From: Bacteroidia bacterium
Lineage (GTDB): Bacteria; Bacteroidota; Bacteroidia; Cytophagales; Cyclobacteriaceae
Direction of reading: 5' to 3'
NCBI GenBank assembly: GCA_030432655.1
Contig: JAUILA010000006.1
Span: 62,001-126,000 of the forward strand
Length of the DNA stretch: 64,000 bases
The first letter of the stretch is position 1; each line of letters opens with the position of its first letter. A program made the position numbers and the translations under genes. A model generated the notes under the pieces. It was not told the origin of the DNA. It ran no database searches and saw only the letters and a program-made list of their open reading frames with translations. Positions 3 to 55,200 of the stretch are shown piece after piece.

Positions 3-509
3 TTCATAACATCTCCGCGTCTGAGTATCGAATCGGGCGCATTATTTAATATGACGCGAAACTATACAGGTCCGGATGAAACCAGTAAACTTAATTTGCC
101 TCCTGCCGACTCCGATTACGGGGATTTCAATGGAATTGAAATGACTTCCTGGTTCATGGAATTACCTGTCAGTTTAAAATACCGTTACAGGATTTCTGCG
201 ACTAATCATCTTGTAGGCGGAATAGGATTGTCAGCGTACCTGTACACCAGGCAGGAATTTGAATATATGTATGATTATGAAGTAGGAGGAGGCTTGATTG
301 CACCCATCGAAAAAAGTATTTATGAACGGGATCCGGCCTTGTATTTCGGATCAGCCAATTTGTCGCTTGGCTTAAGCTCCAATCTTAAAAACGGAAAGAG
401 ACTTGAAGCAAATGTATTCTACAAAAAGAGCCTTTCACAACTTGGAAGGGAAGAGTCAGACGCCGGTTTCCTGGGAATCAGAACCTCCTATATGTTTTCT
501 GTCCGTTAG
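3..509 (+). CDS. outer-membrane beta-barrel protein, N-terminally cut by window edge
   Basis: The frame is open from the first bases of the window to the stop at 507-509, so the gene begins upstream. The 168 visible residues alternate polar and hydrophobic residues in strand-like stretches and end in a strand finishing Tyr-Met-Phe-Ser-Val-Arg, as expected for the C-terminal strands of a small outer-membrane barrel (PorT/OmpW-like size class in Bacteroidota). An in-frame ATG at 51 could be mistaken for the start, but the 16 codons before it read as protein. No specific substrate can be named. The barrel call is an inference from pattern, not from a catalytic or binding motif. Confidence 0.55.
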   Translation, partial: FITSPRLSIESGALFNMTRNYTGPDETSKLNLPPADSDYGDFNGIEMTSWFMELPVSLKYRYRISATNHLVGGIGLSAYLYTRQEFEYMYDYEVGGGLIAPIEKSIYERDPALYFGSANLSLGLSSNLKNGKRLEANVFYKKSLSQLGREESDAGFLGIRTSYMFSVR

Positions 510-606
510 ATTAATTGGTTCGGGAAAGCGCTCATTTTCAGAAAGATAATCGCACAAGGGAAAAATTATTCTTACCTTGAATATAAGCTAAATAAAATTC
601 CGGCTT

Positions 607-2493: not shown

Positions 2494-2510
2494 AGCCTTT
2501 TCGGATTGAA

Positions 2511-3668
2511 TCAGTTATTCCATGAATGTCCGAAGACTATGTACCAGGCAAACTCATCCGGGCCCCGGGCTATGTCAATTCCGGCGCGCAGTTTAAACAA
2601 CCTGGCCATCAGGTACCGGAAACCTGTTCCAACATTGTAGACGGTTTGACCATCACCGAAACCTTCATCCCGTTCTAGTGCTTTGCCTATACCTGTAAAC
2701 CCAACGATACTCCAGCGCGGAGTGATATCAAATCGTTGCTCTGTTTCCATGAGAATAGTGGTGGCCCCCTGGTAACGCACAGCAGGTATGCCACGCATAT
2801 CCACAGAAGGAAGCATGTAAAAGGGAGGATTGTCAATAGCATGATTAAATTCTCCCCGGAATCCACTGATCCAATTCTCCCTTACAGGAATAAAATATAA
2901 TATTGAAGTTGACAGCAACTGAAAATTGAAATCGCTCCCGGTCCAGTCAGCATTCACATCATAGTTTATCCGGGCCAAAATCCCCTTGTCCGGCGTGAAA
3001 ATCGTATTCCTCCTGTCCATTCGGGTCAACAGTCCGAGAGAAGATGTCTTGTTGTCAAGTTCAAGAGGCTGAATAAATTCCGGCACTTCACCCTCAAATT
3101 CCTGAACCAGTTCTGATCGTGCATAACTGTACTTAAGCCCGGCATACCACTTGCTCTTCCGGATCAGCTCCTTCGAAACAGATATCGTAAAAGGCACAGA
3201 GCGTTTGTTAAAGGCAAAGGCCCGCTCACCTATTACCGGTAATTCACGGTAGTAATCGAGGTTCAGGCTGAAATAACCAGCAAACAACGTGTATTTAATT
3301 CCGGCTTTTGGAAAAGTCCCTACGCGCAGTCCACCCACACCCCAGCTGTTATTAACCGTGTACATGCCGAAGATCGAGGTCAGGTCAGGCTGAATGAATC
3401 CTTCGTAATCCTCAATTTCTTTCTTTTGGATAAACAAGGGGGCACCAATTACACCAAACCCGCCTACTGCAGGTTCCGTGATGATATTAAAAATTGGTAC
3501 AAACCCATGCGGATCCAGCAGGAACGAACTAAGGTCCAGCTGATTATCTGTGGAATCCCTGAATGAAAGCTTTTTATCCTGCCCGGGTAAGTGAAAGGCC
3601 AGAATAAATAAGCCGAAATAACTTATGATTCGTATGCAATGAGGCAGTGAAAAAAGCATAGGACTCAT
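2511..3668 (-). CDS. BamA/TamA-family outer-membrane protein
   Basis: The 385-residue protein begins with a signal sequence and is followed by beta-rich sequence. It carries the pattern of the Omp85 surface-antigen barrel domain: a Met-Arg-Gly-Ile-Pro-Ala-Val-Arg-Tyr-Gln-Gly segment near residue 290, resembling the conserved RGF/Y loop that reaches into the barrel, and a C-terminal block Gly-Ile-Asp-Ile-Ala-Arg-Gly-Pro-Asp-Glu-Phe-Ala-Trp-Tyr. It is too short to carry several POTRA domains, so it is a barrel-only member. It lies on the strand opposite its neighbours and ends 17 bases from the DUF3604 gene (convergent). A second ATG three codons in (3659) is an equally possible start. The role of such short Bacteroidota members is unknown. 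Confidence 0.72.
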   Translation of the reverse strand: MSPMLFSLPHCIRIISYFGLFILAFHLPGQDKKLSFRDSTDNQLDLSSFLLDPHGFVPIFNIITEPAVGGFGVIGAPLFIQKKEIEDYEGFIQPDLTSIFGMYTVNNSWGVGGLRVGTFPKAGIKYTLFAGYFSLNLDYYRELPVIGERAFAFNKRSVPFTISVSKELIRKSKWYAGLKYSYARSELVQEFEGEVPEFIQPLELDNKTSSLGLLTRMDRRNTIFTPDKGILARINYDVNADWTGSDFNFQLLSTSILYFIPVRENWISGFRGEFNHAIDNPPFYMLPSVDMRGIPAVRYQGATTILMETEQRFDITPRWSIVGFTGIGKALERDEGFGDGQTVYNVGTGFRYLMARLFKLRAGIDIARGPDEFAWYIVFGHSWNN

Positions 3669-3816
3669 GAATTTAACTCATTTAGTCAATCTAATGAATT
3701 GTTAAATAGCTAATTATAAAAATTCTGTTCCGGCCTGGCCTCAAATTATTTATATTTTACAGAAGATTACAAAATTGCGGCTTTCATGCCACGATGATTA
3801 TTAAAAGTAAGATCAT

Positions 3817-4689
3817 ATGACAAAACTGATAAAAGAACCACTCGTTCATTTCCTTCTTATCGGGCTGGTCATTTTCCTGGTATATGGATTGACTGCCCGC
3901 ACCGGGGATTCACGGGATGAAATAATAATTTCGGACAGTGACCTGGATCATATGGTTGGCTTATTCAGGCTTCAATGGCAGCGCAATCCGACGGAAGAAG
4001 AATTGATCGCACTTGTATCGAAAAGCATAAGGCAGGAAATACTTTACCGGGAAGCGCTGAAAATGAACCTCGATCATAATGATGAAGTGGTTAAACGACG
4101 ACTTGCCCAGAAGATGGATTTTTTGTCCAATGATGTCTCGGCGCTGGTCAATGATCCGAATGATGAGGAACTCAGACGCTATTTTGAAAAGCATGCTGAC
4201 AAATACATGGAAGCTTTCCGTTTCAGCTTTCATCAAATTGTTTTCCGGCCGGAAAATTATGAAGACCCGGTTCAGAAGGCAGAAAAAGTCCTTGATTCTC
4301 TGGAGAATGCATCAGTTGAGGAAATGATTGCTGCCGGAGACGTACTATCACTTCGCAATTATTTTGAAAATGTCGAAGCAACGCGACTGGATATCGATTT
4401 AGGCTCCGGATTTTCACGGCAGCTGGAACCCTTGCCTTTGAATAAGTGGACAGGTCCGGTGAAAGGTGGCTATGGGGTACACCTGGTGTACATCACAGAA
4501 CGGAATGATCCCGCATTGCCGGAATTCGGGCAAATCCGGGATTTGCTGGTCCGGGACTATGTTTATGACAAGGAACAGGAAAGCAAAGACATAATATACG
4601 AACAGCTAAGCAAGGAATATGATATTGAATTGCAGGTAAGCCTTGAACCTGCATTGTCAGCCAGGATATTGGACAAAGTCAGAAGTTGA
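3817..4689 (+). CDS. membrane-anchored parvulin-type peptidyl-prolyl isomerase
   Basis: The 290-residue protein has one N-terminal membrane segment (about residues 10-27) followed by a SurA/PpiD-like helical region and a parvulin domain with strand sequences Phe-Ser-Phe-His-Gln-Ile-Val-Phe at about 135-142 and a Gly-Pro-Val-Lys-Gly-Gly-Tyr-Gly-Val-His motif near 215, close to the usual parvulin Gly-Pro-x-x-S-x-x-G-x-H pattern. It should act as a periplasmic chaperone or foldase tethered to the inner membrane. Its stop overlaps the start of the next gene (TGATG), indicating translational coupling to the HupE-like membrane protein. That coupling suggests that the two act on the same client or that one folds the periplasmic domain of the other, which is inference. 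Confidence 0.85.
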   Translation: MTKLIKEPLVHFLLIGLVIFLVYGLTARTGDSRDEIIISDSDLDHMVGLFRLQWQRNPTEEELIALVSKSIRQEILYREALKMNLDHNDEVVKRRLAQKMDFLSNDVSALVNDPNDEELRRYFEKHADKYMEAFRFSFHQIVFRPENYEDPVQKAEKVLDSLENASVEEMIAAGDVLSLRNYFENVEATRLDIDLGSGFSRQLEPLPLNKWTGPVKGGYGVHLVYITERNDPALPEFGQIRDLLVRDYVYDKEQESKDIIYEQLSKEYDIELQVSLEPALSARILDKVRS

Positions 4690-5684
4690 TGGTGAAGAAG
4701 CCAATTCAATATTGCCTTCTCGCCTTCCTGGTATTAGTGCCCATGGGAATTGTTGTCGCGCATGAAATGCGACCTGCCTACCTGCAAATCAATCAGGTAA
4801 GTGAAACGACCTACCAGGTTTTCTGGAAAATACCAAGGCAGGGGGACATGGTAATCAGGCTTCGGCCGGTTTTTCCGGAAGCAGCATTAACGGAATCCGG
4901 CTTGCCTAAGTATGTTTCCGGCGCCATGCTGTACACGTATGAACTCAAATCAGTTGAAGCGATTGAAGGACAGGAGTTTTACATTGATGGATTGGAGCAA
5001 ACAATGATCGATGTGCTGGTTACTATCCGGTTTGAAAATGGCGAACAAGCCTCTTTAATGATTAAACCGGATGAGAATCGGGCATTGTTCCCGGGAAGTG
5101 CATCGAAGTGGCAGGTAATAAAGTCCTATACTGTATTAGGCGTCGAACATATCTGGTTCGGTATAGACCATCTTTTATTTGTCCTGGCACTTATTATCAT
5201 TACCAGGGGCTTCAGGAAAATTGTGAAAACAATCACAGCCTTTACCATTGCCCACAGTATTACATTAAGCCTCGCTGTGTTGGGCTTTACCAGTTTGCCC
5301 GGTCCGCCGGTCGAGGCAGTCATTGCACTAAGCATCGTTTTTCTTGCGGCGGAAATTCTGAAAAATCTCCGGGGTAGGGAAACACTTACAAGTCGCAAGC
5401 CATGGCTGGTTGCTTTTACTTTCGGATTGTTGCATGGATTCGGTTTTGCGGGAGCACTGACAGAAGTAGGTCTTCCTTCATCGGAAATTCCGCTGGCGCT
5501 GGCATTTTTTAATATAGGCGTGGAGCTCGGCCAGCTGGCATTTGTATTGGTTGCCCTGTCCATTTTAAAACTACTGGCAATGAAACCATCTTGGCCGCTC
5601 GTGCTGCAGAAAATTCCGGCCTATATCATTGGTTCGGTAGCTTCCTTCTGGGTGATAGACCGGATCCTTGCATTTTGGTATTGA
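4689..5684 (+). CDS. HupE/UreJ-family membrane protein
   Basis: The 331-residue product starts with a signal peptide and has a periplasmic beta-rich domain (about residues 25-145), then a HupE/UreJ_2-type membrane domain: His-Ile-Trp-Phe-Gly-Ile-Asp-His-Leu-Leu-Phe, Ala-His-Ser-Ile-Thr-Leu-Ser and Gly-Leu-Leu-His-Gly-Phe-Gly-Phe-Ala-Gly are the conserved histidine-bearing helices of the family. HupE and UreJ proteins are thought to move nickel or a related metal, but members with the extra N-terminal domain have no proven function. I place the start at the ATG at 4689, which overlaps the preceding stop. A TTG three bases upstream is also in frame. No hydrogenase or urease genes are near. Confidence 0.85.
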   Translation: MVKKPIQYCLLAFLVLVPMGIVVAHEMRPAYLQINQVSETTYQVFWKIPRQGDMVIRLRPVFPEAALTESGLPKYVSGAMLYTYELKSVEAIEGQEFYIDGLEQTMIDVLVTIRFENGEQASLMIKPDENRALFPGSASKWQVIKSYTVLGVEHIWFGIDHLLFVLALIIITRGFRKIVKTITAFTIAHSITLSLAVLGFTSLPGPPVEAVIALSIVFLAAEILKNLRGRETLTSRKPWLVAFTFGLLHGFGFAGALTEVGLPSSEIPLALAFFNIGVELGQLAFVLVALSILKLLAMKPSWPLVLQKIPAYIIGSVASFWVIDRILAFWY

Positions 5685-5735
5685 ATACACCGGAAGAATT
5701 CAACAATTTCAATGCCTTTCAATCTAACGGACAGG

Positions 5736-8435
5736 TCAGGAATTTCCGTTCACTGAAATATGCCTTCGCAATGATTCTATCAGTTTCTTACTGTCCAGAG
5801 GTTTTACAAAGTGCTCTTTGAAACCCATTTCTGAAGAGGTTTGAATGTATTCTTTGCTACCCAGCCCGGAGTGTGAGAAAAATATCGTTTCACTGGTATC
5901 GTACCACTCCTTTAGTTCTTTCATCAAATCAAATCCGGACATGTCAGGCAGGCCAAGATCAAGTATAGCAACTTCTGGTTTGGATTCTCCATATTCTTTC
6001 AGAGCAGATTTTCCATCCATAGCGGATCTGACATCATATCCCTTTGCCTTCAAAAGCATCGTCATAATGGTAATGAGGTCTTCGTTATCATCCACCACCA
6101 AAATTTTCACCTTTTCCTTCTCCTCTTTTTTTGCTTTTTCATCTCTCGCGGGATGATTAGCTTTTTGACCGCCTTCCATGTAAACCGGAATTTCCACCAC
6201 GAATTCACTGCCCATTCCTGGTCCGTCACTGTACGCATAAATAATTGCGTTATGCATGGCTACCAGTTTTTTCACAAGCGTTAGTCCGATTCCAAGCCCC
6301 TCCCTGGTTTGCTTGGAATTCCCGTTGAGCTGGGTAAACATGGTAAATATGGATTCGAGGTCCTCTTTATCAATGCCCGTTCCGTCATCCCGTATGCTCA
6401 CCCGTACACAATCGTCCAGCACTTCTGCCGTAAGATCGATATTGCCACCATCATCCGTATATTTGGCGGCATTGTTCAGGATGTTGGTAAATACCTGTGC
6501 AAGCCGGGTACGGTCGGCTTTTATCCAGATATCTTCATCCGGAATATTGATCGTCAGGTGATGATCATTCTGTTTAATAATTGATTTACAGGTATCCAGG
6601 CTATCCATAAGAATTTCCTGAATCGTGAGGACTTCCAGGTTCATCCTTACTTTCCCCTGAGTAATTCTTGAAACATCCAGCAAGTCATCAATCATAGTGG
6701 ACATGTTGGCTACCTGTCGCTTCATAGTATTCATCACCTGATCACGAACATGCGGGTCATCTTCCATCTCCAGCAGGGAGATGCCGGTGGCAATGGGAGA
6801 AAGTGGATTTCTAAGCTCATGAGCCAATGTGGCGAGAAATTCATTTTTGTACCGGTCCTGTAATTCAAGGTTGACTATGTCCTCTCGCATTTTCTCCTGT
6901 TTCTCCAGTGCATGTGCCATGAACACCCTGTTAAAGCGGTAGGCTACTTCCACGTCATGCGTATCCCATGGAATACTGTGACCATGAATTTTTTTAGTAT
7001 GCACCTGGAATGAACTGCGTGGGGTAAGACGATCTTTCTTTGAGGCGGTCGGACTCTTTTCCTCTGGTGTTCCCGCCCAGCGTTGGTGCTGGATTTTTTC
7101 TTTTCTGAACCAGGCGGTAAAATAGTTTTTGTTTTCAACCAGCGAGACCAGCAGCATCCCCCGGATACCATTCAACTTGTCGGTATCGCTCACCATGTCC
7201 ACCATACTGGTCGTCACCAATGGTTTGGAACGCAATCCCTTTGCCTGGTGGAATACTTCCTTCATTACCTCCAGGTCAGGCGTTTCCCCTATCCCGATAT
7301 GGTCAGACTCAGAAAAATACATAAACCCGTCTGCTTTAGCGATGTTCAGCACATCCTCCTGGTTTTGACGAAAGACGTTAACGATCGGGTTCAGAATAGT
7401 GATCTTATCGACGATCTTTTCAATTGATTTCTCCGTTTCCGATTTGCGCTTCAGCTGAAGCTCTTCCTCCTTGGCATATAAATGCCAGCTGAAGAGCTGT
7501 GACAGATTCTCACATTCAAGCCGGACATTCTGTGGTATGTAGCGCGGTTCCCGGCTGTGGCATGAAATCATCCCCCATAATTTATCGTGTGTTACCAGTG
7601 ACATGGACATGGAAGATTTTAATCCCTGGTTGCTGATGTACTGACGATGTATGGGAGATAAATTCCGCAGGAATGAATACGTCATATCCAGTGGTTCCCT
7701 GCCGCTTTCCTCAATGGAAGGGATAAGCCTGGATGGCTCAAGATCAACATTAGCCATCAGCCTGATCCAGTTTTTTTTGTACAGATCACGTGCCTGGGGA
7801 GGAATATCAGAAGCAGGGTAATGCAGGTGAAGATAACTTTCAATATCATCCACTTTTGACTCGGCGATCACCTGCCCCGATGAATCGTCATGAAACCGAT
7901 ACAGCACTACACGTTCCATATCTGTTATGTCCCGGATAGTATCCACAATTTCCTGGGACATTTGATCAAGGCTTTTGAAGCTGGAGAATTTGGGGGCTAC
8001 GCTGATGGCGTAGAGCTGGATAAAGTGCCTGGCAGAATATGCCTCCCTAAATCGACCTGCCGGTTCCAGCTCAATCACAAAAAGATCACCACTGGTGTAA
8101 ACGACTGCGTAAAAGTCCGAAGCATGTTCCGGGCGAATGAATTCCTCCCGGAATTTCAGGCGCAGCGGTAACCGTGTTCTTTTTTCCCGGGCTCGCTCAT
8201 GAGTTTCTTTTACAAATTTTGTATCATCCTCATCCCGAAGCAGATTGAAAAAATTCTCACCAATAATTTTCAGGTGATCTTTAAACAGGTTAGAAGTATT
8301 TTCACTAATGACCTTTATGATGCCATGCTCCTTTTCCAGGGCAAATAAATAACCATATCCCTGGATGGCTTCAGGAATATGGATCGGCTCATCTTCACAA
8401 TGATCAAAATCGAGTTTATCAATATCAAGTTTCAC
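5736..8435 (-). CDS. hybrid bacteriophytochrome histidine kinase with C-terminal receiver domain
   Basis: This 899-residue red/far-red light sensor has the classical order PAS, GAF, PHY, HisKA, HATPase and receiver. Cys13, in the context Asp-His-Cys-Glu-Asp-Glu-Pro-Ile-His, is the expected biliverdin attachment site of bacterial phytochromes. The GAF domain carries Pro-Ala-Ser-Asp-Ile-Pro (206-211) and the PHY tongue carries Pro-Arg-Ser-Ser-Phe (472-476). His539 in the H-box Ala-His-Glu-Leu-Arg-Asn-Pro is the autophosphorylation site. N, G1 and G2 boxes follow at about 650-720. The receiver has Asp826 as phosphoacceptor and Lys878. The start is a GTG at 8435: an in-frame stop lies three codons upstream and no ATG precedes the chromophore region. 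No bilin-making heme oxygenase is in the window. A separate output regulator is also absent, so the phosphorelay target is unknown. Confidence 0.95.
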   Translation of the reverse strand: MKLDIDKLDFDHCEDEPIHIPEAIQGYGYLFALEKEHGIIKVISENTSNLFKDHLKIIGENFFNLLRDEDDTKFVKETHERAREKRTRLPLRLKFREEFIRPEHASDFYAVVYTSGDLFVIELEPAGRFREAYSARHFIQLYAISVAPKFSSFKSLDQMSQEIVDTIRDITDMERVVLYRFHDDSSGQVIAESKVDDIESYLHLHYPASDIPPQARDLYKKNWIRLMANVDLEPSRLIPSIEESGREPLDMTYSFLRNLSPIHRQYISNQGLKSSMSMSLVTHDKLWGMISCHSREPRYIPQNVRLECENLSQLFSWHLYAKEEELQLKRKSETEKSIEKIVDKITILNPIVNVFRQNQEDVLNIAKADGFMYFSESDHIGIGETPDLEVMKEVFHQAKGLRSKPLVTTSMVDMVSDTDKLNGIRGMLLVSLVENKNYFTAWFRKEKIQHQRWAGTPEEKSPTASKKDRLTPRSSFQVHTKKIHGHSIPWDTHDVEVAYRFNRVFMAHALEKQEKMREDIVNLELQDRYKNEFLATLAHELRNPLSPIATGISLLEMEDDPHVRDQVMNTMKRQVANMSTMIDDLLDVSRITQGKVRMNLEVLTIQEILMDSLDTCKSIIKQNDHHLTINIPDEDIWIKADRTRLAQVFTNILNNAAKYTDDGGNIDLTAEVLDDCVRVSIRDDGTGIDKEDLESIFTMFTQLNGNSKQTREGLGIGLTLVKKLVAMHNAIIYAYSDGPGMGSEFVVEIPVYMEGGQKANHPARDEKAKKEEKEKVKILVVDDNEDLITIMTMLLKAKGYDVRSAMDGKSALKEYGESKPEVAILDLGLPDMSGFDLMKELKEWYDTSETIFFSHSGLGSKEYIQTSSEMGFKEHFVKPLDSKKLIESLRRHISVNGNS

Positions 8436-8584
8436 ATCCGGTAGTTAAAAGAAATAATTATATCTGTTATTCACAGACGGTAATCTGTCAGAGAAAATAA
8501 TGCCAATGCCTGGAAATGAAGGAAATAATTAATCCGGGCAGAATTGTGGAAAAAAATACTCAATCATTTGTACCCACTTAGCCA

Positions 8585-8611
8585 CAAAAAAAGGATGCCG
8601 GGGAGGCATCC
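8585..8611 (-). terminator. intrinsic terminator of the DUF1508 gene
   Basis: A perfect 7-bp stem GGATGCC / GGCATCC (8593-8599 and 8605-8611) with a five-base loop is followed, reading the minus strand, by a run of seven T (complement of 8586-8592). It sits about 30 bases after the DUF1508 stop. Confidence 0.85.
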
Positions 8612-8640
8612 TCATTAAAATTTACAACTGCGCAAGGCAT

Positions 8641-8964
8641 TTACTCTTCAGTGATATCAGCACCCGGTGCATTTTTCATCACAGAAGCAACTCCATTCTC
8701 CCGGGCTGCTTTGGTCGTATACACTTCACTCGTGCCAATCACTTCCTTATTTGCTGCTTTCAGGGTGAACGAAAATTTACCGTCACCGTCTTTACGCTCA
8801 AACTGCGCATCGCTGGCAGCGTTTTTTTGTACGGAGGTTATTCCTCCTTTGCATCCCTGTTTGGACTTGTAACCCTGGCTGGCCAGGATGATCTGTCCAT
8901 TGGAAGCCTTAAGACGGAAATAGTAATCTCCGTTTTTGCCTTGAAATATTTGAAATTTTCCCAT
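8641..8964 (-). CDS. DUF1508 (YegP-like) protein with two tandem repeats
   Basis: The 107-residue protein consists of two copies of the DUF1508 unit. Copy one (about 1-52) has Phe-Arg-Leu-Lys-Ala-Ser-Asn-Gly-Gln-Ile and Ser-Gln-Gly-Tyr. Copy two (about 53-105) has Phe-Thr-Leu-Lys-Ala-Ala-Asn-Lys-Glu-Val and Thr-Ser-Glu-Val-Tyr, each ending in a Gly-x-x-Ser-Val-x-Lys-Asn-Ala segment. This matches the YegP family of small soluble proteins, whose role is not known. It has its own terminator and a 206-base upstream gap, so it is probably a single-gene unit. No signal peptide is present. Confidence 0.92.
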   Translation of the reverse strand: MGKFQIFQGKNGDYYFRLKASNGQIILASQGYKSKQGCKGGITSVQKNAASDAQFERKDGDGKFSFTLKAANKEVIGTSEVYTTKAARENGVASVMKNAPGADITEE

Positions 8965-9170
8965 AACGTAATAGTTGTGTTTTGACCGGAAAGAACGGTA
9001 ACCTGTTGTAATTATGCAAGTTAACCATGTTAAATTCTATAAGTATATGCTCAATTTTTATTTGTCGTCACCTGTCCGGATAATATTCATAGCCAGGTGA
9101 CACAGACCGGATACCGACAGCCATTTCTTTTCAGCAAGGATTTGGCTAACTTATCGGAAAACCACTGAGC

Positions 9171-9527
9171 ATGCAAAGTAAAAAGCTGACTGAAGAGTGG
9201 TTCCGGTGCTGGGAAAAGGGAGACTATCTGTCTATCCCTGTATCAGACGATTTTTCGCATACAAGCCCGTATGGTACGATTGAGGGTAAGTCCGAATACC
9301 TTAAAATCGTTGAGGCCAACAAGGAAAAATTTCTGGGTAACACCATAGAGGTTAGGGACTCCATCTATTCGGCGAATAAGGCCTGTGTCCGTTACCGTCT
9401 CCGGAATCCTGATTTCAGTATGGAAGTAAGCGAATGGATCTATATTTCCAGTGGCCTTATCAGCAGGATCGTATCCTATTATCATATCGGCGGCGAGATC
9501 AGTGAAGAGAGAAAATTGACCAAATAA
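9171..9527 (+). CDS. NTF2-like (SnoaL-type) small protein
   Basis: The 118-residue product has the layout of the NTF2-like fold: an N-terminal helix (Glu-Glu-Trp-Phe-Arg-Cys-Trp-Glu-Lys-Gly-Asp), a Ser-His-Thr-Ser-Pro-Tyr-Gly segment with Gly-Lys-Ser-Glu-Tyr-Leu, then curved strands ending in Ile-Val-Ser-Tyr-Tyr-His. Such proteins act as small ligand-binding or isomerase-like enzymes, and the substrate cannot be read from the sequence. It lies two bases upstream of the DUF2961 gene on the same strand and is probably co-transcribed with it. No signal peptide, so cytoplasmic. Confidence 0.75.
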   Translation: MQSKKLTEEWFRCWEKGDYLSIPVSDDFSHTSPYGTIEGKSEYLKIVEANKEKFLGNTIEVRDSIYSANKACVRYRLRNPDFSMEVSEWIYISSGLISRIVSYYHIGGEISEERKLTK

Positions 9528-48532: not shown

Positions 48533-48677
48533 AATCATTGTAGTTTTGTTCCGTCGGCTGAAGCTTTAGCGAAAGCTGGTCGCATCCGCCGAAGCCTCTG
48601 GCGCAGGTGGACCGAAGTTTACGGCAACGCCGAATGTCTTTATTGGCACGCCTTCGCCAAAGGCTTCGGCGCGCAGA
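48533..48677. repeat. GC-rich palindromic mosaic directly upstream of tRNA-Val
   Basis: This stretch is made of imperfect palindromes, e.g. AGCTTTAGCGAAAGCT at 48560-48575 and CGCCTTCGCCAAAGGCTTCGGCG near 48651-48673 (a CCTTCGCC/GGCTTCGG-type pair), plus a third Gly-codon-like CGCCGAAGCCTCTGGCG segment. It differs from the flanking AT-rich sequence and may be a short interspersed palindromic repeat. No open frame there is convincing. Confidence 0.5.
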
Positions 48678-48752
48678 GGGTGATTAGCTCAGTTGGTTTA
48701 GAGCACCTGCTCGACAAGCAGGGGGTCACTGGTTCGAATCCAGTATTACCCA
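48678..48752 (+). tRNA. tRNA-Val (anticodon GAC)
   Basis: A full cloverleaf fits: acceptor GGGTGAT/ATTACCC (48678-48684, 48745-48751), D stem GCTC/GAGC, anticodon stem CCTGC/GCAGG (48706-48710, 48718-48722), T stem ACTGG/CCAGT around TTCGAAT. The anticodon loop 48711-48717 is TCGACAA, giving anticodon GAC. Position 33 is C rather than the near-universal U, so the isotype call rests on this loop reading. CCA is not encoded (ACA follows). It is the attachment site of the element to its right. Confidence 0.85.
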
Positions 48753-48773
48753 CATTGATTATCAGGCACTTAC
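48708..48773 (+). repeat. attL direct repeat (tRNA 3' end plus terminator 5' arm)
   Basis: Bases 48708-48746 are identical to 54520-54558. Differences to the right copy follow at 48747, 48748 and 48755 only, within 66 bases. The acceptor end here is ATTACCC, where the right copy has ATCGCCC; both can pair with the GGGTGAT 5' end through a G-T pair. Confidence 0.9.
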
Positions 48774-48797
48774 GATTAATTTTGTAAGTGCCTTTTT
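48765..48797 (+). terminator. terminator after tRNA-Val
   Basis: GGCACTTAC / GTAAGTGCC (48765-48773, 48784-48792) with a ten-base loop and TTTTT. The same hairpin with three to four changes lies at 54577-54604. Confidence 0.85.
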
Positions 48798-48798
48798 C

Positions 48799-48819
48799 AT
48801 TTGCAAGCAATTTGCAAGC
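48799..48819 (+). repeat. paired arm-type integrase sites, left end
   Basis: ATTTGCAAGC occurs twice (48799-48808 and 48810-48819), 11 bases apart. The same pair, same spacing and orientation, lies beside the integrase start at 54385-54405. Arm-type binding sites are expected here for a tyrosine integrase. Confidence 0.7.
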
Positions 48820-48851
48820 GGATTTTGACGATTTCTGGCATGTTTTTTCCG

Positions 48852-48975
48852 GCGGAAAAAAATTTTCAAAAAAGTTTAAAAAGTCCTTATTTGTTATTGT
48901 CGAAACTGTGAATTGTGTAAAAGTCAGGAGTGGGATTGCGCCTGGGAGTTTTCCACTGTTCACGGTAAATTGAAA
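48852..48975 (+). repeat. duplicated module, copy 1
   Basis: About 120 bases are shared at roughly three-quarters identity with copy 2 at 50285-50410, including the exact 20-base segment at 48944-48963. It ends a few bases before the start of the small membrane-protein gene at 48979. Confidence 0.75.
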
Positions 48976-48978
48976 GAT

Positions 48979-49293
48979 ATGAGTCTTTTTAAGATCGTAA
49001 ATTATTTAATCCTTGGATGTGCTGGATTTGGAATGACTATCTTAACCATGTTTTGGTTAGGGACTGAAGAGGATTTTAGTTCGACTTGGAGGGTAGAGTT
49101 GTTTCTAATCAGATTGGGATTCAACCTATTGTTAACCATAATATTTTCAGTCATTATGGTTATATCTAATCGAATTTTAATGAAAGCAGTAGGAGCACAT
49201 GGACAGCCTGAATTCCCAAAAGAAATGGCCTATGTTTTCTTCATTGTACTTTCAACGATTAATCTGTTGGGATGTATATTGTTTGTATTATGA
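48979..49293 (+). CDS. small three-helix membrane protein, unknown
   Basis: The 104-residue product has three likely membrane helices (about 9-27, 39-60 and 82-103). I choose the ATG at 48979 because the 22 codons before it belong to the duplicated module and do not look like protein. I recognise no family. It is followed three bases later by the YwqK-like lipoprotein gene and both are likely one transcript driven from the copy 1 module. Confidence 0.7.
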   Translation: MSLFKIVNYLILGCAGFGMTILTMFWLGTEEDFSSTWRVELFLIRLGFNLLLTIIFSVIMVISNRILMKAVGAHGQPEFPKEMAYVFFIVLSTINLLGCILFVL

Positions 49294-49296
49294 AAT

Positions 49297-50064
49297 ATGA
49301 AATTACCTCCACGAATCGTGATCTTAATTTTTGTATTCCTCATGAACTGTGGTGATAATAACGATTATCAAATAGTGAGTTACTATCCGTCAGGTTCAAT
49401 TAAAGAAACAAGCGAGGTGAATGAACATTCAGTTAAAGAGGGCCTTAGTATTGGATTTTTTGAGAATGGTGATACCGCCAGAATAGCAACTTATAAAGCC
49501 GGTAAACTTGACTCCACTGAAGTATTATATTATCGTTCAGGTGGCCTGAATATTCGAAGGTCATGGCGTATGGGTGAATTATTTGGTGAATACCGGGAGT
49601 TCTACGAGGATTCAGAGTCTGTATACTACACTATACTGGATAAAGACACAGTGGCTATTGAGGGGCCGGTGGTTTCTAAATACATGTTTTATTATGGCGA
49701 AGGAATCAAATATTATCGAGAATATGACAGGAAAGGAAGATTGAAGGAAGAAGGGGGATCAGGCATAATAGCTTTCAATCCATTAGAAAAATCAAATGAA
49801 TTTGAATTAAATGATACCCTCAAAATTCAATTTTTATTAGCGTCTCCAAATTATGCATATCGGGAATTCGAAGTAATTACCTATCATAATGATAGTCTCA
49901 TTTCGGAGGAAAACATTAAAATTAACAATGCGTTAAGCTCAGCATTTTTAATTAAAAAGCTTGATAGACTAGGCAAATACCAATTTTATGTAAAATGCAG
50001 AATTTATGGTAAGATGGATTCCAGTGTTAAAGTAGACACACTTCATTTTGGTATTCAAATTTAA
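49297..50064 (+). CDS. YwqK/MORN-like lipoprotein
   Basis: The 255-residue product has a lipobox (Met-Asn-Cys18). Residues about 28-105 contain repeated Tyr-x-x-Ser-Gly-x-(Ile/Leu) and Gly-x-x-x-Gly-x-Phe units (Tyr-Pro-Ser-Gly-Ser-Ile, Phe-Glu-Asn-Gly-Asp, Tyr-Arg-Ser-Gly-Gly-Leu, Gly-Glu-Tyr-Arg-Glu-Phe-Tyr), as in YwqK/MORN_2 proteins, several of which occur as antitoxins or immunity-like partners. A C-terminal beta-rich domain (about 160-255) is unassigned. It is envelope-anchored. AT-rich codon use sets it apart from the chromosomal genes. Confidence 0.72.
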   Translation: MKLPPRIVILIFVFLMNCGDNNDYQIVSYYPSGSIKETSEVNEHSVKEGLSIGFFENGDTARIATYKAGKLDSTEVLYYRSGGLNIRRSWRMGELFGEYREFYEDSESVYYTILDKDTVAIEGPVVSKYMFYYGEGIKYYREYDRKGRLKEEGGSGIIAFNPLEKSNEFELNDTLKIQFLLASPNYAYREFEVITYHNDSLISEENIKINNALSSAFLIKKLDRLGKYQFYVKCRIYGKMDSSVKVDTLHFGIQI

Positions 50065-50211
50065 CGGGTATGTATTTCAGAACAATAAAATATTATCGTG
50101 AAGCATTAAAAGAGAGTTTACTCAGCTGACTCAAAAAAAAACAAAAATTTGATTTTATTAACGTCCACATTCCTGGATAATATCCAATACACACCGGATT
50201 TAGAGTAGGCA

Positions 50212-50246
50212 ATCCAGAAGCGAGCAGGAGTGGGTGTATTCTGGAT
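50212..50246. repeat. stem-loop in the interval upstream of copy 2
   Basis: ATCCAGAA (50212-50219) and TTCTGGAT (50239-50246) form a perfect 8-bp inverted repeat with a 19-base loop. An outer, imperfect arm (50182-50195) can pair with part of the same right arm. No gene is seen in 50065-50444, which otherwise holds copy 2 of the duplicated module. Confidence 0.4.
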
Positions 50247-50284
50247 CGCGAGTAACTACGAGCAATCCATTCTACAATCAAAAG

Positions 50285-50410
50285 GCAGGAGAAATTTTCT
50301 AACTAGTTTAAAAAATCCCTAATTATTGTTGTCGTAACTGTGAAATGTGGGAAAGTTACGGGTGGGATCGTGCCAGGGAGTTTTCCACTGTTCACAGCAA
50401 GTGACAAATT
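50285..50410 (+). repeat. duplicated module, copy 2
   Basis: The 20-base segment at 50376-50395 is identical to 48944-48963, and the surrounding 120 bases are clearly related. The module ends about 35 bases before the start of the secreted NTR-like gene. Confidence 0.75.
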
Positions 50411-50444
50411 CTTAATTCCTGGTTATTTTAATTTAGTAACGGAG

Positions 50445-50999
50445 ATGTTTACAAAAATGGTCCAATATACATTCTTGCTTTCGACCTTTCTTTTGATTAC
50501 AGGTAATGCTCATGCGTGTGAATGTGAATATTCAGATGAGATATTAAATGAATTGAAACAAACGGCAGATTTCATTTTCATAGGATCGGCTGTGTCTAAT
50601 TTTCATTATAATACTGAAATAGTGGAAGCGCAGAATACTGCTGGTTATGGTTCGAATGTATTTTTTAAAATTGACGATTTGATAAAGGGTGATGCAGAGG
50701 CAGGCCAGAACATTTTCATATATCAGGAGTCTTCTAGCTGTGAGCAGGATTTTGTGCTCAATAAGAAATATTTGGTTATTGGATATTCGATCAAATCCTT
50801 CGAATCAATAGATTGCCAATCTGTTCCTCCGCCACCTTCAGACATAGATACGGTCAAAATTTGCAATGACTTGGAGAAAGTCCGTTTTTTAAATAATAAA
50901 AGCTCCAATGGACTGATTTTAACGACGAATGTGTGTGGCGTATTTGTGGCAGGCACCGACTTGTTTAACGAATTACTATCCGCGTGGGGTAATGAATAA
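50445..50999 (+). CDS. small secreted protein, possibly NTR/TIMP-like fold
   Basis: The 184-residue product has a signal peptide ending before Cys-Glu-Cys. The pattern Cys-x-Cys, Phe-Ile-Phe-Ile-Gly-Ser-Ala, Phe-Lys-Ile-x-x-x-Ile-Lys-Gly, then Cys-Glu-Gln-Asp-Phe and Tyr-Leu-Val-Ile-Gly-Tyr is that of bacterial proteins related to the netrin/TIMP (NTR) domain. That is an inference from pattern. Starts at 50445 or 50457 are possible; I prefer 50445 because it adds a lysine to the signal peptide, and an upstream frame to 50340 reads through the duplicated module. It lies alone after that module. Confidence 0.65.
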   Translation: MFTKMVQYTFLLSTFLLITGNAHACECEYSDEILNELKQTADFIFIGSAVSNFHYNTEIVEAQNTAGYGSNVFFKIDDLIKGDAEAGQNIFIYQESSSCEQDFVLNKKYLVIGYSIKSFESIDCQSVPPPPSDIDTVKICNDLEKVRFLNNKSSNGLILTTNVCGVFVAGTDLFNELLSAWGNE

Positions 51000-51225
51000 T
51001 TATTTTCAGTTGAAATGCTAACCTGAACATGATGGATGAAAGGGAATATCAGCCAGGTTGAACTTGTACATATAAAAGGATTAAACCACCCTACTCCAAG
51101 TGGATCTAGTTCCTCACCAGAAAAAGATGCAAATGGTCTATCTAAATCAAACAACCTTCTGACATATGGAAGTTACATAATGGATGGTAACTCAAAGCAT
51201 TTAAATGGGGTAGATAAAACAACCG

Positions 51226-51615
51226 ATGATTAATAAAATAATAATGACATGCATTTATACAATGTTCCTATTGAGCATTGTATCATGTGAAAAGCAAGCT
51301 GAGGCAACTGAAATTATGGAATGCATAGATATCAAAATGAAGAGATCTTACTTGTTTTTTGAAAAAGGATTTCAAGGTGATGAACTTGATGTGTTTGTCA
51401 ACGGTCACCACTTTGAAAATAGAATTTTAGATACTGATCCATCTATGGATTTAGCGGGTGAGATATTTATCAAGACTGATACAGTTCAACAAATCGCATT
51501 CAAAATTAATAATCAATATTATGGGGGTTTTTGTCCATATCCATTTATTCAAATCAATAGATTAAATGATCAAATTGTAATAAAAGTAGCTGAAGAACCT
51601 ACTGCATATGAATAA
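51226..51615 (+). CDS. small lipoprotein, unknown
   Basis: The 129-residue product has a lipobox Ile-Val-Ser-Cys (Cys21). The rest is a beta-rich domain with two further cysteines at about 33 and 103. I recognise no family. A short frame just upstream (51036-51233) overlaps it but has no signal or domain and is not listed. Confidence 0.6.
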   Translation: MINKIIMTCIYTMFLLSIVSCEKQAEATEIMECIDIKMKRSYLFFEKGFQGDELDVFVNGHHFENRILDTDPSMDLAGEIFIKTDTVQQIAFKINNQYYGGFCPYPFIQINRLNDQIVIKVAEEPTAYE

Positions 51616-51630
51616 CATAAAGCTAGTATT

Positions 51631-51690
51631 ATGAATTAGTTTTTACTCCTTTTCCTTTTATTATCTCAAGCATGTGATGGTATAAGATAA
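51631..51690 (+). pseudogene. decayed lipoprotein gene start
   Basis: Reading from the ATG at 51631 gives Met-Asn-stop, then Phe-Leu-Leu-Leu-Phe-Leu-Leu-Leu-Ser-Gln-Ala-Cys-Asp-Gly, a clear lipoprotein signal and lipobox broken by a TAG at codon 3, with a TAA after codon 19. It is very short but typical of a dead lipoprotein gene. Confidence 0.4.
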
Positions 51691-51994
51691 ATTCTAGAAA
51701 AGAACCTATCCTAATTTGCGCATCAGTATATTTATTTCATAGAAATTAGCGTGGATGGCAGGTATTTATTTCTAAAGCTCCTTTTTATAATATTGATTAG
51801 ATTGATCTAACCTAGGCGGCTAACGGATGTATGATGATTTAAGGATCAAGTGAAATCCAAGTCGCGCCGGATTTTCGCTTTTTGAATCAAAAAACACATC
51901 TTGCTATAACGCTTCCATTTTCTGAACTTGCTAGGTGCCAACATGGGAAATGATGACTGAAATATTCATGTTGGTCATTGGGTAATCAAATGTT
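51691..51994. other. gene-free, AT-rich interval
   Basis: No convincing coding frame or hairpin is seen in these 304 bases. It separates the decayed lipoprotein start from the next gene and is probably remnant DNA of the element. Confidence 0.4.
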
Positions 51995-52492
51995 ATGATA
52001 ACTATTAATGGAATCTGGATAAAAGTAATAGTGACTCTGAGCATTATATCCTATTCACCAGGATCCTATTCTCAAGGTGCATGGAATTTAAAATATACTC
52101 CGATTGATCAATTAGGTAAAGAATTAGTGGGATCGGAAGTTAGGATCGATTTCAAATCTTCCATAAATGACACACTAAGCGGTGTAGTTTCTCCAATTTC
52201 AATTAGAAAACTATTATCAAATAACGATACCGTGCATTTAACTTTTGATCACGGGAGAGAAATATTTATTGAGAACTGGAAGTTATATCCTGACCATGGC
52301 GTATTGAATGAACAAGAATTAGTGAACCTGAATGGAAGTGTAATTAGAGAACAAATTTTAGAATCTATTTCTAAGAACGTCCTTACTATAAGGGTGAAAA
52401 TTTTTAGAAAAAATCGTAATGAATATGAATTCGATTCAGAGGAAGAAATAAATATTGAACGGAATATTGTTAAAGGTATAATATATAAATGA
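51995..52492 (+). CDS. secreted protein, unknown
   Basis: The 165-residue product has a signal peptide (about 1-26, ending near Ser-Tyr-Ser-Gln-Gly) followed by beta-rich sequence with Asp-Thr/Asn-Asp-Thr loops and a C-terminal basic stretch. I recognise no family and no catalytic motif. It is AT-rich like its neighbours. Confidence 0.6.
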   Translation: MITINGIWIKVIVTLSIISYSPGSYSQGAWNLKYTPIDQLGKELVGSEVRIDFKSSINDTLSGVVSPISIRKLLSNNDTVHLTFDHGREIFIENWKLYPDHGVLNEQELVNLNGSVIREQILESISKNVLTIRVKIFRKNRNEYEFDSEEEINIERNIVKGIIYK

Positions 52493-52576
52493 TAGCGATT
52501 GCATCATATCTGTTTAGACTTAGAATCAAAGAGAAAGTCTGGATTCGCTTAACCGGAAAGAAAATAATCATTCCTG

Positions 52577-52690
52577 CATTTCAAACAAGTCGTAGATAGT
52601 TCAAATGAAAGGCAGCATTGGATTGATTTCCGGGACGCTGCGTATGAAGATTATGTAAACGAGGAGTTTGAATGGCAGATTGATGGGTAA
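52577..52690 (+). pseudogene. 3' fragment of a UPF0158 gene
   Basis: Thirty-seven in-frame codons plus stop (52577-52690) encode a close match to the last part of the intact UPF0158 protein at 54757-55200: Asp-Phe-Arg-Asp-Ala-Ala-Tyr-Glu is shared, as is Glu-Glu-Phe-Glu-Trp-Gln-Ile-Asp. Similarity continues weakly upstream (Leu-x-Arg-Lys) but a frameshift breaks the frame. The intact gene lies outside the element, just past its right end. Confidence 0.85.
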
Positions 52691-52761
52691 AGATTTCAAC
52701 GAACCTTCGAATATTTTATCCGACCAGAAATCATTTGATAAACTTTAATTATAACTTCAAA

Positions 52762-53109
52762 ATGGATTCGAAAAATTTTGTTCAGATCACAAAGCAGGTT
52801 GTTATGGAATCTGCAATAAAGGATACCATTGACAATTTGGTTGAACCACTTGGTAAAAAGCCTAAGGCAGAACTCAAAGAAATGAGTGATTACTATAAAA
52901 ATTGTACGAATAACGAGCGACAAATTATAGCAAATATTATTAGAGAATCTGCAGAGGCAACTTTCTTTGGTTTCTTATGTGTAATAGATGGCGTAAGAGC
53001 TATTGAGGGTAATGGGGATAAAGGAAGTCTCGAATTATGGTACCGAAAAGGAGAATTTACGAGACTAATTAATGACGAGAATGAGGATTTTCTACATGAT
53101 TTAATCTAA
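52762..53109 (+). CDS. small acidic protein, unknown
   Basis: The 115-residue product is soluble and acidic with mostly helical sequence. A block Phe-Phe-Gly-Phe-Leu-Cys-Val-Ile-Asp-Gly-Val-Arg-Ala-Ile-Glu at about 74-88 and a terminal Phe-Leu-His-Asp-Leu-Ile remind me of small immunity-type proteins, but this is weak. I start at the ATG at 52762; a TTG nine codons earlier is in frame. It converges on the integrase gene. Confidence 0.6.
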   Translation: MDSKNFVQITKQVVMESAIKDTIDNLVEPLGKKPKAELKEMSDYYKNCTNNERQIIANIIRESAEATFFGFLCVIDGVRAIEGNGDKGSLELWYRKGEFTRLINDENEDFLHDLI

Positions 53110-53144
53110 ATGATTGATGTAAAGGTGAAATTCCAGAATTGGAA

Positions 53145-54383
53145 TTAAAATGATAATTCCTTTATAATCACTTCATCATACGAATCTATAACCTCATTCT
53201 CGAATGAATCCAGGTACACTTGGGTAACAGATTCACTTGAATGCCCCAAACTTTCCTTAATCACTGAAACCGGAACGCCTTTTCGTTTTCCCATGGTAGC
53301 GTAGGTATGGCGTGCGGTGTAAATAGTAAAGCGTTCGATATTCAGCACTCTAGAAATCTCCTTCAGCTGTTTATTTAGTTTTCGCCGGCGCTCTCCGATA
53401 ATCTCTCGGAATTTTTCTTCCGAGTACTTGTAATCCAGAATAGGAAAGATGAATGATTCCTGGTCATATTTTTCCGGCAGGTATTTCAGCATGAGTTTTT
53501 TCAAAGGGTCACTGATCTTCACGCTGAACGGTTTTCCGGTTTTCTGGCGGACATACCGGACTCTATCAAAATCACCCTGGATATTTTTCACTTTCAAATA
53601 AGCCAGGTCCATCCAGTTCATACCCCGGAGGAAAAAACTTGCCATAAAGAGATCCCGTGCCCGCTGGAGGTAATATCTTCCTTCCAGGTTACCGGAGATC
53701 AGCTTACGAAAATCAGACTCGCTAAGCGCCTTTCTGGTGGGTTGGCCATTCTTGATTTTGTAATCCGTAAAAGGATAATGATCCCGCTTGACAATTCCGG
53801 ATTTGATAGCCCGGTTGTAGGCAGCGCGAAGTGTTCTCATATAAACGGACAACGATCCTGTCCTGGCTCCCTTACTGTAATGCCAGTTCTCAAACTTATT
53901 CAGGAATACATAATTGACCTGTTCGAAATACAGGTCCTTCTTTGAGGTGAAGGTTTTGAGCATCCGAAGGGTGGCCTTGTACACCTCTGCGTTGCCAACC
54001 TTTCCTGCTGTGGTGAGATCATCTACTATTTGCTGAAGAAAAGAGAAGACAGTTATTCTTTTTTTCTTTTCACCAGTAATTAAAACTCTTAGCTGCTGAA
54101 TGCTGGTAACTTCCAGTTTTTTCTCATCGTATAATTGAGTGATGAGATCGTACGCACGGGTGCGTTTCTTTTGGATGGCGTTATTGAATCGGGTGGTATT
54201 GTCAACAAAGTGGGAAGAGGGCTTTAACCGTTCCTGCTGTTCATCCCAGTCTTTCTCCTGGAGGCTGTACCCCAACGGAATATTCGTACTCCTGCGCTCA
54301 TGGATTACCCGCATCACCAGGGGATAGGACCCGTCCTGTTTAGCCCTTCGTTTATCGAGTAATATTTTGATGTTGGTAGCCAC
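53145..54383 (-). CDS. tyrosine recombinase / site-specific integrase
   Basis: The 412-residue protein has an arm-DNA-binding domain (about 1-75), a SAM-like core-binding domain (about 100-205) and the catalytic domain with Arg253, Lys281, Arg358, His381 (in Leu-Gly-His-Ser-Ser) and the nucleophile Tyr390. The histidine of the usual H-x-x-R box is a tyrosine, as in many Bacteroidota integrases. A longer frame begins at an ATG at 54416. I prefer the GTG at 54383: it gives the standard Ala-Thr-Asn-Ile-Lys-Ile-Leu N-terminus and leaves the arm-type sites (54385-54405) outside the gene, directly at its start, where integrase binding would also repress it. It integrates or excises the element at tRNA-Val. 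Confidence 0.93.
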   Translation of the reverse strand: MATNIKILLDKRRAKQDGSYPLVMRVIHERRSTNIPLGYSLQEKDWDEQQERLKPSSHFVDNTTRFNNAIQKKRTRAYDLITQLYDEKKLEVTSIQQLRVLITGEKKKRITVFSFLQQIVDDLTTAGKVGNAEVYKATLRMLKTFTSKKDLYFEQVNYVFLNKFENWHYSKGARTGSLSVYMRTLRAAYNRAIKSGIVKRDHYPFTDYKIKNGQPTRKALSESDFRKLISGNLEGRYYLQRARDLFMASFFLRGMNWMDLAYLKVKNIQGDFDRVRYVRQKTGKPFSVKISDPLKKLMLKYLPEKYDQESFIFPILDYKYSEEKFREIIGERRRKLNKQLKEISRVLNIERFTIYTARHTYATMGKRKGVPVSVIKESLGHSSESVTQVYLDSFENEVIDSYDEVIIKELSF

Positions 54384-54384
54384 G

Positions 54385-54405
54385 ATTTGCAAGCCATTTG
54401 CAAGC
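54385..54405 (+). repeat. paired arm-type integrase sites, right end
   Basis: ATTTGCAAGC at 54385-54394 and 54396-54405, spaced and oriented as at the left end. It abuts the GTG start of the integrase. Confidence 0.7.
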
Positions 54406-54443
54406 GAAAGTACCAATTCTGCGAATCAAAAAGAAATGCGATT

Positions 54444-54487
54444 GTTCAAAAAAGTGCGTTTAAACGCTCTAATGGCACATTTTGAAC
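54444..54487. repeat. nested palindromes between integrase and attR
   Basis: The perfect 12-bp palindrome GCGTTTAAACGC (54456-54467) lies partly inside a longer imperfect inverted repeat, GTTCAAAAAAGTGC (54444-54457) against GCACATTTTGAAC (54475-54487). This is a candidate binding site for an excision factor or regulator. Confidence 0.45.
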
Positions 54488-54519
54488 CGTTTGAGATTTT
54501 TATGAAACACCGATTTTAG

Positions 54520-54585
54520 TGCTCGACAAGCAGGGGGTCACTGGTTCGAATCCAGTATCGCCCACACTGATTATCAGGCACTTAC
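54520..54585 (+). repeat. attR direct repeat
   Basis: Right copy of the tRNA-Val 3' segment; see attL for the exact match. Its ATCGCCC acceptor end probably represents the tRNA end that existed before integration. Confidence 0.9.
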
Positions 54586-54609
54586 AATGAATATTGTGAG
54601 TGCCTTTTT
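54577..54609 (+). terminator. second copy of the tRNA terminator
   Basis: GGCACTTAC / GTGAGTGCC (54577-54585, 54596-54604) with TTTTT, likely the original terminator of tRNA-Val before the element inserted. Confidence 0.8.
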
Positions 54610-54756
54610 CTTTTCTGCCCACTTTTTGCATGTTTTTTCTGCTTTTTCCTTCGTTATCGAAAGTAACGTCATATTACGTTTTGCTGAGTCATTAAACACA
54701 TTTTGCTTTATCCTTTCCTTTTTCCGACTTTAAATAACAATTAACAAGTGCATATC

Positions 54757-55200
54757 ATGCCTGGAAAAACTACACTGACCAAGGAAATGATCAAGGAAAT
54801 ATCCGGATCTCTTCAAGCCGGAATTACTTGCTACCTTCATAAAGAATCAGGAGAAATAATAGAAACAATGGAGGGCGCGGATTATGATCCTGAATGGGAT
54901 GATGGAGCTTTTGGGAAAAAGCTTTATGATATTGAAAATTCACCCGAAGACTATTTAATGTTCAGTCCTATGTCCAGCTCGCGAGCGTTTGATGTTATGG
55001 AAGATTTCGCCAATCAACTGGAAATCATGTCGCTTAAAATTGAATTGGTTAATGCGCTCGACAGAAAACAGCCGTTCAGGCATTTCAAACAGATAGTGGA
55101 TAGTTCAGACGCAAGGCAGGATTGGTTTGATTTCCGCGACGCTGCGTATGAAAATTATGTAAGAGAGGAGTTTGAATGGCAGATTGATGAAGAAGACTGA
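54757..55200 (+). CDS. UPF0158 family protein
   Basis: The 147-residue protein matches the UPF0158 family, with Met-Phe-Ser-Pro-Met-Ser-Ser mid-protein and Trp-Phe-Asp-Phe-Arg-Asp near the C-terminus. Role unknown. Bases before the ATG at 54757 include an in-frame GTG (54748), but the ATG gives a typical start. It is the first chromosomal gene to the right of the element, and a copy of its 3' end lies inside the element. Confidence 0.88.
   Translation: MPGKTTLTKEMIKEISGSLQAGITCYLHKESGEIIETMEGADYDPEWDDGAFGKKLYDIENSPEDYLMFSPMSSSRAFDVMEDFANQLEIMSLKIELVNALDRKQPFRHFKQIVDSSDARQDWFDFRDAAYENYVREEFEWQIDEED

Follow-up and report, generated by a model that had tools for sequence, protein, structure and literature searches.

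Heterogeneous polyimmunity loci are toxin-free arrays of co-oriented, unrelated immunity genes, several of which lie beside XerC/D-type recombinases (PMC3482391). These loci occur in Bacteroidota and were proposed to act as a shield against the toxins of non-kin; the small intergenic distances that are typical of them are not absolute (PMC3482391). A second described system, rAID (recombinase-associated acquired interbacterial defence), consists of two or more co-directional short genes that have a GC content below 41% and intergenic motifs and are preceded by a recombinase (PMC12247911). Homology of the recombinase to B. fragilis BF9343_RS08045 is a further mark of this system. The literature on orphan immunity clusters, so far as surveyed, concerns mainly gut Bacteroidales with T6SS. 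In this work, we analyzed a 64-kb stretch of DNA (the window, G000:C43:62001-126000) from a genome of 4.95 Mb in 50 contigs (Cyclobacteriaceae, Cytophagales, Bacteroidota). A first-pass annotation had placed in the window a small integrative element with an undescribed cargo. As a claim to a new kind of cargo this is not supported, since toxin-free immunity arrays beside recombinases are already on record (PMC3482391, PMC12247911), and the kind of element has precedents. We consider it probable that the element carries mainly toxin-free immunity-like genes. Together with its sister islands, it makes up a group of six or more tRNA islands of like build in the host genome. The features of the element and its target, by window position, are:

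48678-48753 (+), tRNA-Val(GAC), the integration target (ARAGORN, Rfam RF00005), with its 3' part supplied by the element
48708-48802 (+), attL copy of the direct repeat (tRNA 3' half and terminator)
48799-48820 (+), putative left arm-type site, tandem 11-mers TTTGCAAGCAA-TTTGCAAGCGG
48860-48968 (+), repeat D2 copy 1, hairpin leader upstream of the membrane-protein gene
48979-49293 (+), small membrane protein, 104 aa
49297-50064 (+), YwqK/MORN-like lipoprotein, 255 aa, with homologs directly behind RHS toxin tips
50292-50400 (+), repeat D2 copy 2, upstream of the netrin-like gene, 82% identical to copy 1
50445-50999 (+), exported CxC protein, about 184 aa, possibly netrin/TIMP-like
51226-51615 (+), lipoprotein of 129 aa; an RHS-HExxH peptidase-like gene directly precedes one of its homologs
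51995-52492 (+), 165-aa exported protein, with homologs downstream of one RHS tip type in two families
52556-52685 (+), UPF0158 gene remnant, 85% identical to the intact gene at 54748-55200
52762-53109 (+), DUF6547-like cytosolic protein, 115 aa
53145-54383 (-), tyrosine integrase (Arm-DNA-bind_5, SAM_5 and Phage_integrase domains; GTG start)
54385-54406 (+), putative right arm-type site, tandem 11-mers, 95% identical to the left site
54520-54614 (+), attR, the original tRNA-Val 3' end with its terminator, now displaced

The borders are set by a direct repeat of 95 nt with 92% identity, the first 39 nt of which form a perfect core (blastn E 1.6e-33). The repeat of the tRNA 3' end reported in the first-pass annotation is therefore real, and its length of 66 bp was too short, as the repeat runs beyond tRNA-Val and across the terminator. 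When the flanks were joined (48578-48707 and 54520-54720), ARAGORN called an intact tRNA-Val(GAC), and it called no tRNA in attR alone or attP alone. The displaced tRNA end, ATCGCCC, equals the end of the native tRNA in another genome (G026). The att repeats, the integrase and the tRNA restored on joining the flanks confirm a small integrative element in tRNA-Val, 5.8 kb in size. Its AT-rich interior was also borne out: the GC content is 34.2% compared to 47.6% outside, where no window of equal size falls below 44.4%. In tRNA-Val(GAC) loci of relatives from other genera the element is absent and the flanks are non-syntenic; a search by flank genes among the other-genus genomes compared found no syntenic empty site.

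The tyrosine integrase was found at the right end as had been annotated, inside the element, directly after the cargo and convergent to it. Its open reading frame spans 53145-54416 on the minus strand with the GTG at 54383 as the probable start, and the C-terminal R..H..Y motifs are present. A scan of genome contigs with the integrase gave no relative; within the host genome, the closest integrase is that of the tRNA-Pro island. A scan of both strands of the 64 kb found TTTGCAAGC four times, at 48800, 48811, 54386 and 54397, i.e. as one 11-bp tandem pair per element end with identical orientation at both, which is the pattern expected of arm-type sites. The integrase would recombine the tRNA-Val(GAC) 3' end of the element with the chromosomal one and restore the tRNA, and the paired 11-bp sites at both ends would guide the recombination. 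Domain and PHROGs searches recognized no relaxase, T4SS or conjugation genes among the cargo ORFs, in agreement with the earlier statement that transfer genes are missing. As mobile DNA, the element is an ordinary tRNA island, and its intact parts suggest that it may still be mobile today.

Small size and insertion into a tRNA by a tyrosine integrase generally fit phage satellites as well, and a kinase and RlaP genes on the tRNA-His sister island (see below) would suit an anti-phage island. We judge either origin very improbable: capsid, packaging, primase and repressor genes were not recognized, PHROGs matches were confident for the integrase alone, the integrase shares at most about 31% identity with phage integrases, and PADLOC gave no convincing match.

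Six co-oriented genes make up the cargo (104, 255, about 184, 129, 165 and 115 aa), with a GC content of 30–37%. Only the first two are tightly spaced, and the remaining gaps measure 226–380 nt. The small secreted proteins or lipoproteins expected from the first-pass annotation are the YwqK-like, CxC netrin-like, 129-aa and 165-aa proteins; of the other two, one is a membrane protein and one is DUF6547-like and cytosolic. We found homologs for five of the six at about 21–44% identity, including orthologs of the DUF6547-like protein in Aquiflexum and Belliella (40–44%); none was found for the 104-aa membrane protein. None of the six proteins passed a Pfam cut-off, and thus none matches a Pfam Imm family. 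Profile searches against the PDB were negative for three families (netrin-like, 165-aa and DUF6547-like), and for the YwqK-like family matched only MORN-bearing proteins, e.g. SET7/9. A search of plasmids for the 165-aa protein found no match.

Homologs of three cargo proteins lie next to RHS genes. The YwqK-like lipoprotein genes start within, or a few bases past, an RHS-core ORF in six loci (L162, L188, L194, L195, L198 and L215), and a YwqK-like gene on the host's own tRNA-Pro island (contig C34) overlaps an RHS tip by 26 nt. Homologs of the 165-aa protein follow RHS genes at a distance of about 295 nt in L182 and about 67 nt in L183. The tips of these RHS genes share 50% identity over 91 aa, and the loci come from two other families. 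For the 129-aa family, RHS adjacency was seen in one locus only (L166), where the gene follows by 5 nt an RHS gene with the motif HEIGHTGGLHH (weak Reprolysin_3). The NCBIfam model TIGR03696 detected the RHS core in five adjoining proteins (E 1e-5 to 1e-15), two of them below the curated cut-off.

To put numbers on this association, we compared 52 loci of the YwqK-like, 165-aa and 129-aa families with 76 control loci (tRNA, ABC transporter, netrin-like and DUF6547-like). An RHS core was found in 11 of the 52 and in none of the controls (Fisher p 2.5e-5), using a home-made RHS profile seeded partly from the tested loci and a statistic that ignores relatedness. A simple RHS motif scan, with a motif written after seeing some of the loci, gave 8/49 against 0/78. 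The other 41 of the 52 loci lack an RHS core within about 1.5 kb. Within the window itself, a motif scan found no RHS core. Three RHS tips sought in the host genome were not found, a weak negative from a search that had no positive control. We also considered cassette arrays on account of repeats near many cargo homologs and rejected them; several of the repeats are RHS-core duplications, and others are coding repeats or unrelated.

Because relatives of the cargo elsewhere sit right behind genes for contact-dependent (RHS) toxins, the element most likely supplies spare antidotes. The exported or lipid-anchored cargo proteins would be located in the periplasm or outer envelope, where they would neutralize RHS-delivered tips of competitors, some of which bear HExxH peptidase-like motifs; the host would thereby be armed with spare antidotes against the toxins of its neighbors. 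That the proteins bind and neutralize tips and so benefit the host is suggested by the genomic context of their homologs. The context supports an immunity role for the YwqK-like, 165-aa and 129-aa proteins, and to this extent the possible immunity module of the first-pass annotation stands. The netrin-like, DUF6547-like and membrane proteins showed no RHS link; these three genes may be passengers. This, the lack of a nearby RHS core at most homolog loci, the single such case in the 129-aa family and the low identity of the homologs to the window proteins (21–36%) count against the immunity reading. MORN_2/YwqK repeats are common, and such proteins are not all antidotes.

The netrin-like gene raises a different explanation, namely that the cargo consists of exported proteins unrelated to one another that act in the envelope or as protease inhibitors, such as a TIMP-like CxC protein, and are not antidotes. 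Its CxC is N-terminal and immediately follows the signal peptide. The NTR-like guess of the first-pass annotation remains weak: Pfam NTR matched two of 11 homologs, with a best E-value of 0.039, and the structure prediction (pLDDT 36), like that for the DUF6547-like protein (pLDDT 45), was of too low quality to be informative. The netrin-like homologs are scattered single genes without an adjacent toxin gene, none of them near RHS. Direct RHS adjacency in three other cargo families speaks against extending this explanation to the whole cargo, and we give it little credence.

The host genome holds at least five further tRNA islands of like build, which we traced through related integrases. Both ends are visible for the islands in tRNA-Leu(TAA), tRNA-Arg(TCT) and tRNA-His, and those in tRNA-Pro(TGG) and tRNA-Val(TAC) are cut by contig ends. 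The island ends inspected share a tRNA 3' end and usually a similar terminator of the GCACTTAC..GTAAGTGC type; the terminators of two non-island tRNAs (Gly and Ser) are unrelated to it. The tandem arm pair differs per island (TTTGCAAGC, TCTGCCCA, TTACGCACA, GGTTAAACA, TTTGCAGAA and TTGCGTGC). Two of the sister islands carry RHS-type tips with lipoprotein partners. In the tRNA-Val(TAC) island, a lipoprotein gene comes directly after an LRR-RHS gene whose tip is of the HEYGH type, and there is a second tip-lipoprotein pair.

The tRNA-Val(TAC) island has its distal end at 357-9475 of locus L108 (G000:C43:1-14000), with the LRR-RHS ORF at 2455-6474, and its proximal end on contig C14; L108 also holds an RHS-core duplication, an integrase and a displaced tRNA end. 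The tRNA-Pro island (L145, G000:C34:1-16000, 101-7391) has an integrase, an RHS tip with its YwqK-like lipoprotein, an HTH gene and a further HEWGH tip with a lipoprotein partner. Other cargo includes a reprolysin-like peptidase with a T9SS sorting tail in the tRNA-Arg island (L150, 6042-7658), two RlaP-type nucleotidyltransferases and a kinase in the tRNA-His island (L151, 2020-6358), and a multicopper oxidase with DUF305 in the tRNA-Leu island (L148, 6997-9932). A third YwqK-like lipoprotein of the host lies near a gene that looks by eye like a relaxase (L222, 4003-8096, G000:C19). A conserved HTH protein (weak HTH_36) recurs in the Leu (L148, 11953-12960), His (L151, 6526-6999) and Pro (L145, 6200-7192) islands and may serve the island family as a regulator or as a replication-type protein; its gene is absent from the window element.

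To the right of the element, from 54558 onward, are an island-type terminator, an arm-like site TCTGCCCACT and the UPF0158 gene (54748-55200). Together with the UPF0158 remnant inside the element, the terminator and TCTGCCCACT indicate that the tRNA-Val site was probably occupied by an earlier element. Repeat D2 is 109 nt long, is able to form a long hairpin, and has two copies in the whole host genome, each just upstream of a cargo gene. We rejected D2 as an integron-like attC (the core motifs are absent by eye, and there are only the two genomic copies) and as a coding remnant (differences are not clearly clustered at one codon position, and each frame stops in at least one copy).

The UPF0158 remnant and the non-coding stretches show that the element has partly decayed. 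Taken further, it could be the leftover of one or more larger islands that held the HTH gene and other cargo, with small ORFs that no longer function. The 3' fragment of UPF0158, the duplication of D2, the missing HTH gene, the long gaps that separate the cargo ORFs and the traces of an earlier element would all fit. However, the element retains an intact integrase, intact att repeats and intact arm sites. Six ORFs of 104–255 aa are still open; export signals are present in several of them, and five have conserved homologs. We regard such a functionless remnant as unlikely.

The reading we prefer, spare antidotes on a tRNA island, can be widened into a more tentative proposal, which we hold to be possible but doubtful. 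Cyclobacteriaceae tRNA islands with modular att sites (a shared terminator and island-specific 11-bp arms) may trade RHS toxin-immunity cassettes; some of them would have shed the toxin and spread immunity only, and the D2 leader would mark exchangeable cassettes. If immunity is indeed the role of the cargo, the element would be a precisely bounded, possibly mobile example of orphan immunity in Cytophagales, three unnamed exported protein families would be tied to RHS tips, and toxin-bearing and toxin-free versions of one island type would exist inside a single genome. How resistance to toxins spreads independently of toxin production would then be directly testable.

With respect to known systems, the element resembles Islander-type tRNA genomic islands (PMC4383910) in that it carries an integrase, regenerates its tRNA and has its ends marked by the displaced 3' fragment, with no difference in principle. 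As in the YwqJ-YwqK LXG toxin-antitoxin pair of Bacillus subtilis (PMC8321402), the homologous loci place a MORN/YwqK-type gene immediately after a polymorphic toxin gene; those loci carry RHS-type rather than LXG tips, the window protein is a lipoprotein with an extra C-terminal domain, and the element has no toxin. Like polyimmunity loci, the element combines toxin-free, co-oriented, structurally unrelated small genes, some of which have immunity-type homologs, with an adjoining recombinase gene. Unlike them, it has precise borders in the form of tRNA att sites, lacks a Pfam Imm match, has an immunity-type context for three of its six genes only, and has larger gene gaps; because of these wide gaps we compare it with heterogeneous polyimmunity loci and do not file it as one. 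With rAID (PMC12247911) it shares a tyrosine recombinase and short co-oriented genes of low GC content, and D2, an intergenic repeat in two copies only, may be a counterpart of the rAID motifs. Its target is a tRNA and its host a member of Cytophagales, unlike rAID, and its integrase is distal, on the opposite strand and convergent, whereas that of rAID is upstream and co-directional; this position of the integrase keeps the element out of rAID. Thus, it is not a rAID member, but would be functionally like polyimmunity and rAID loci if its cargo does confer immunity.
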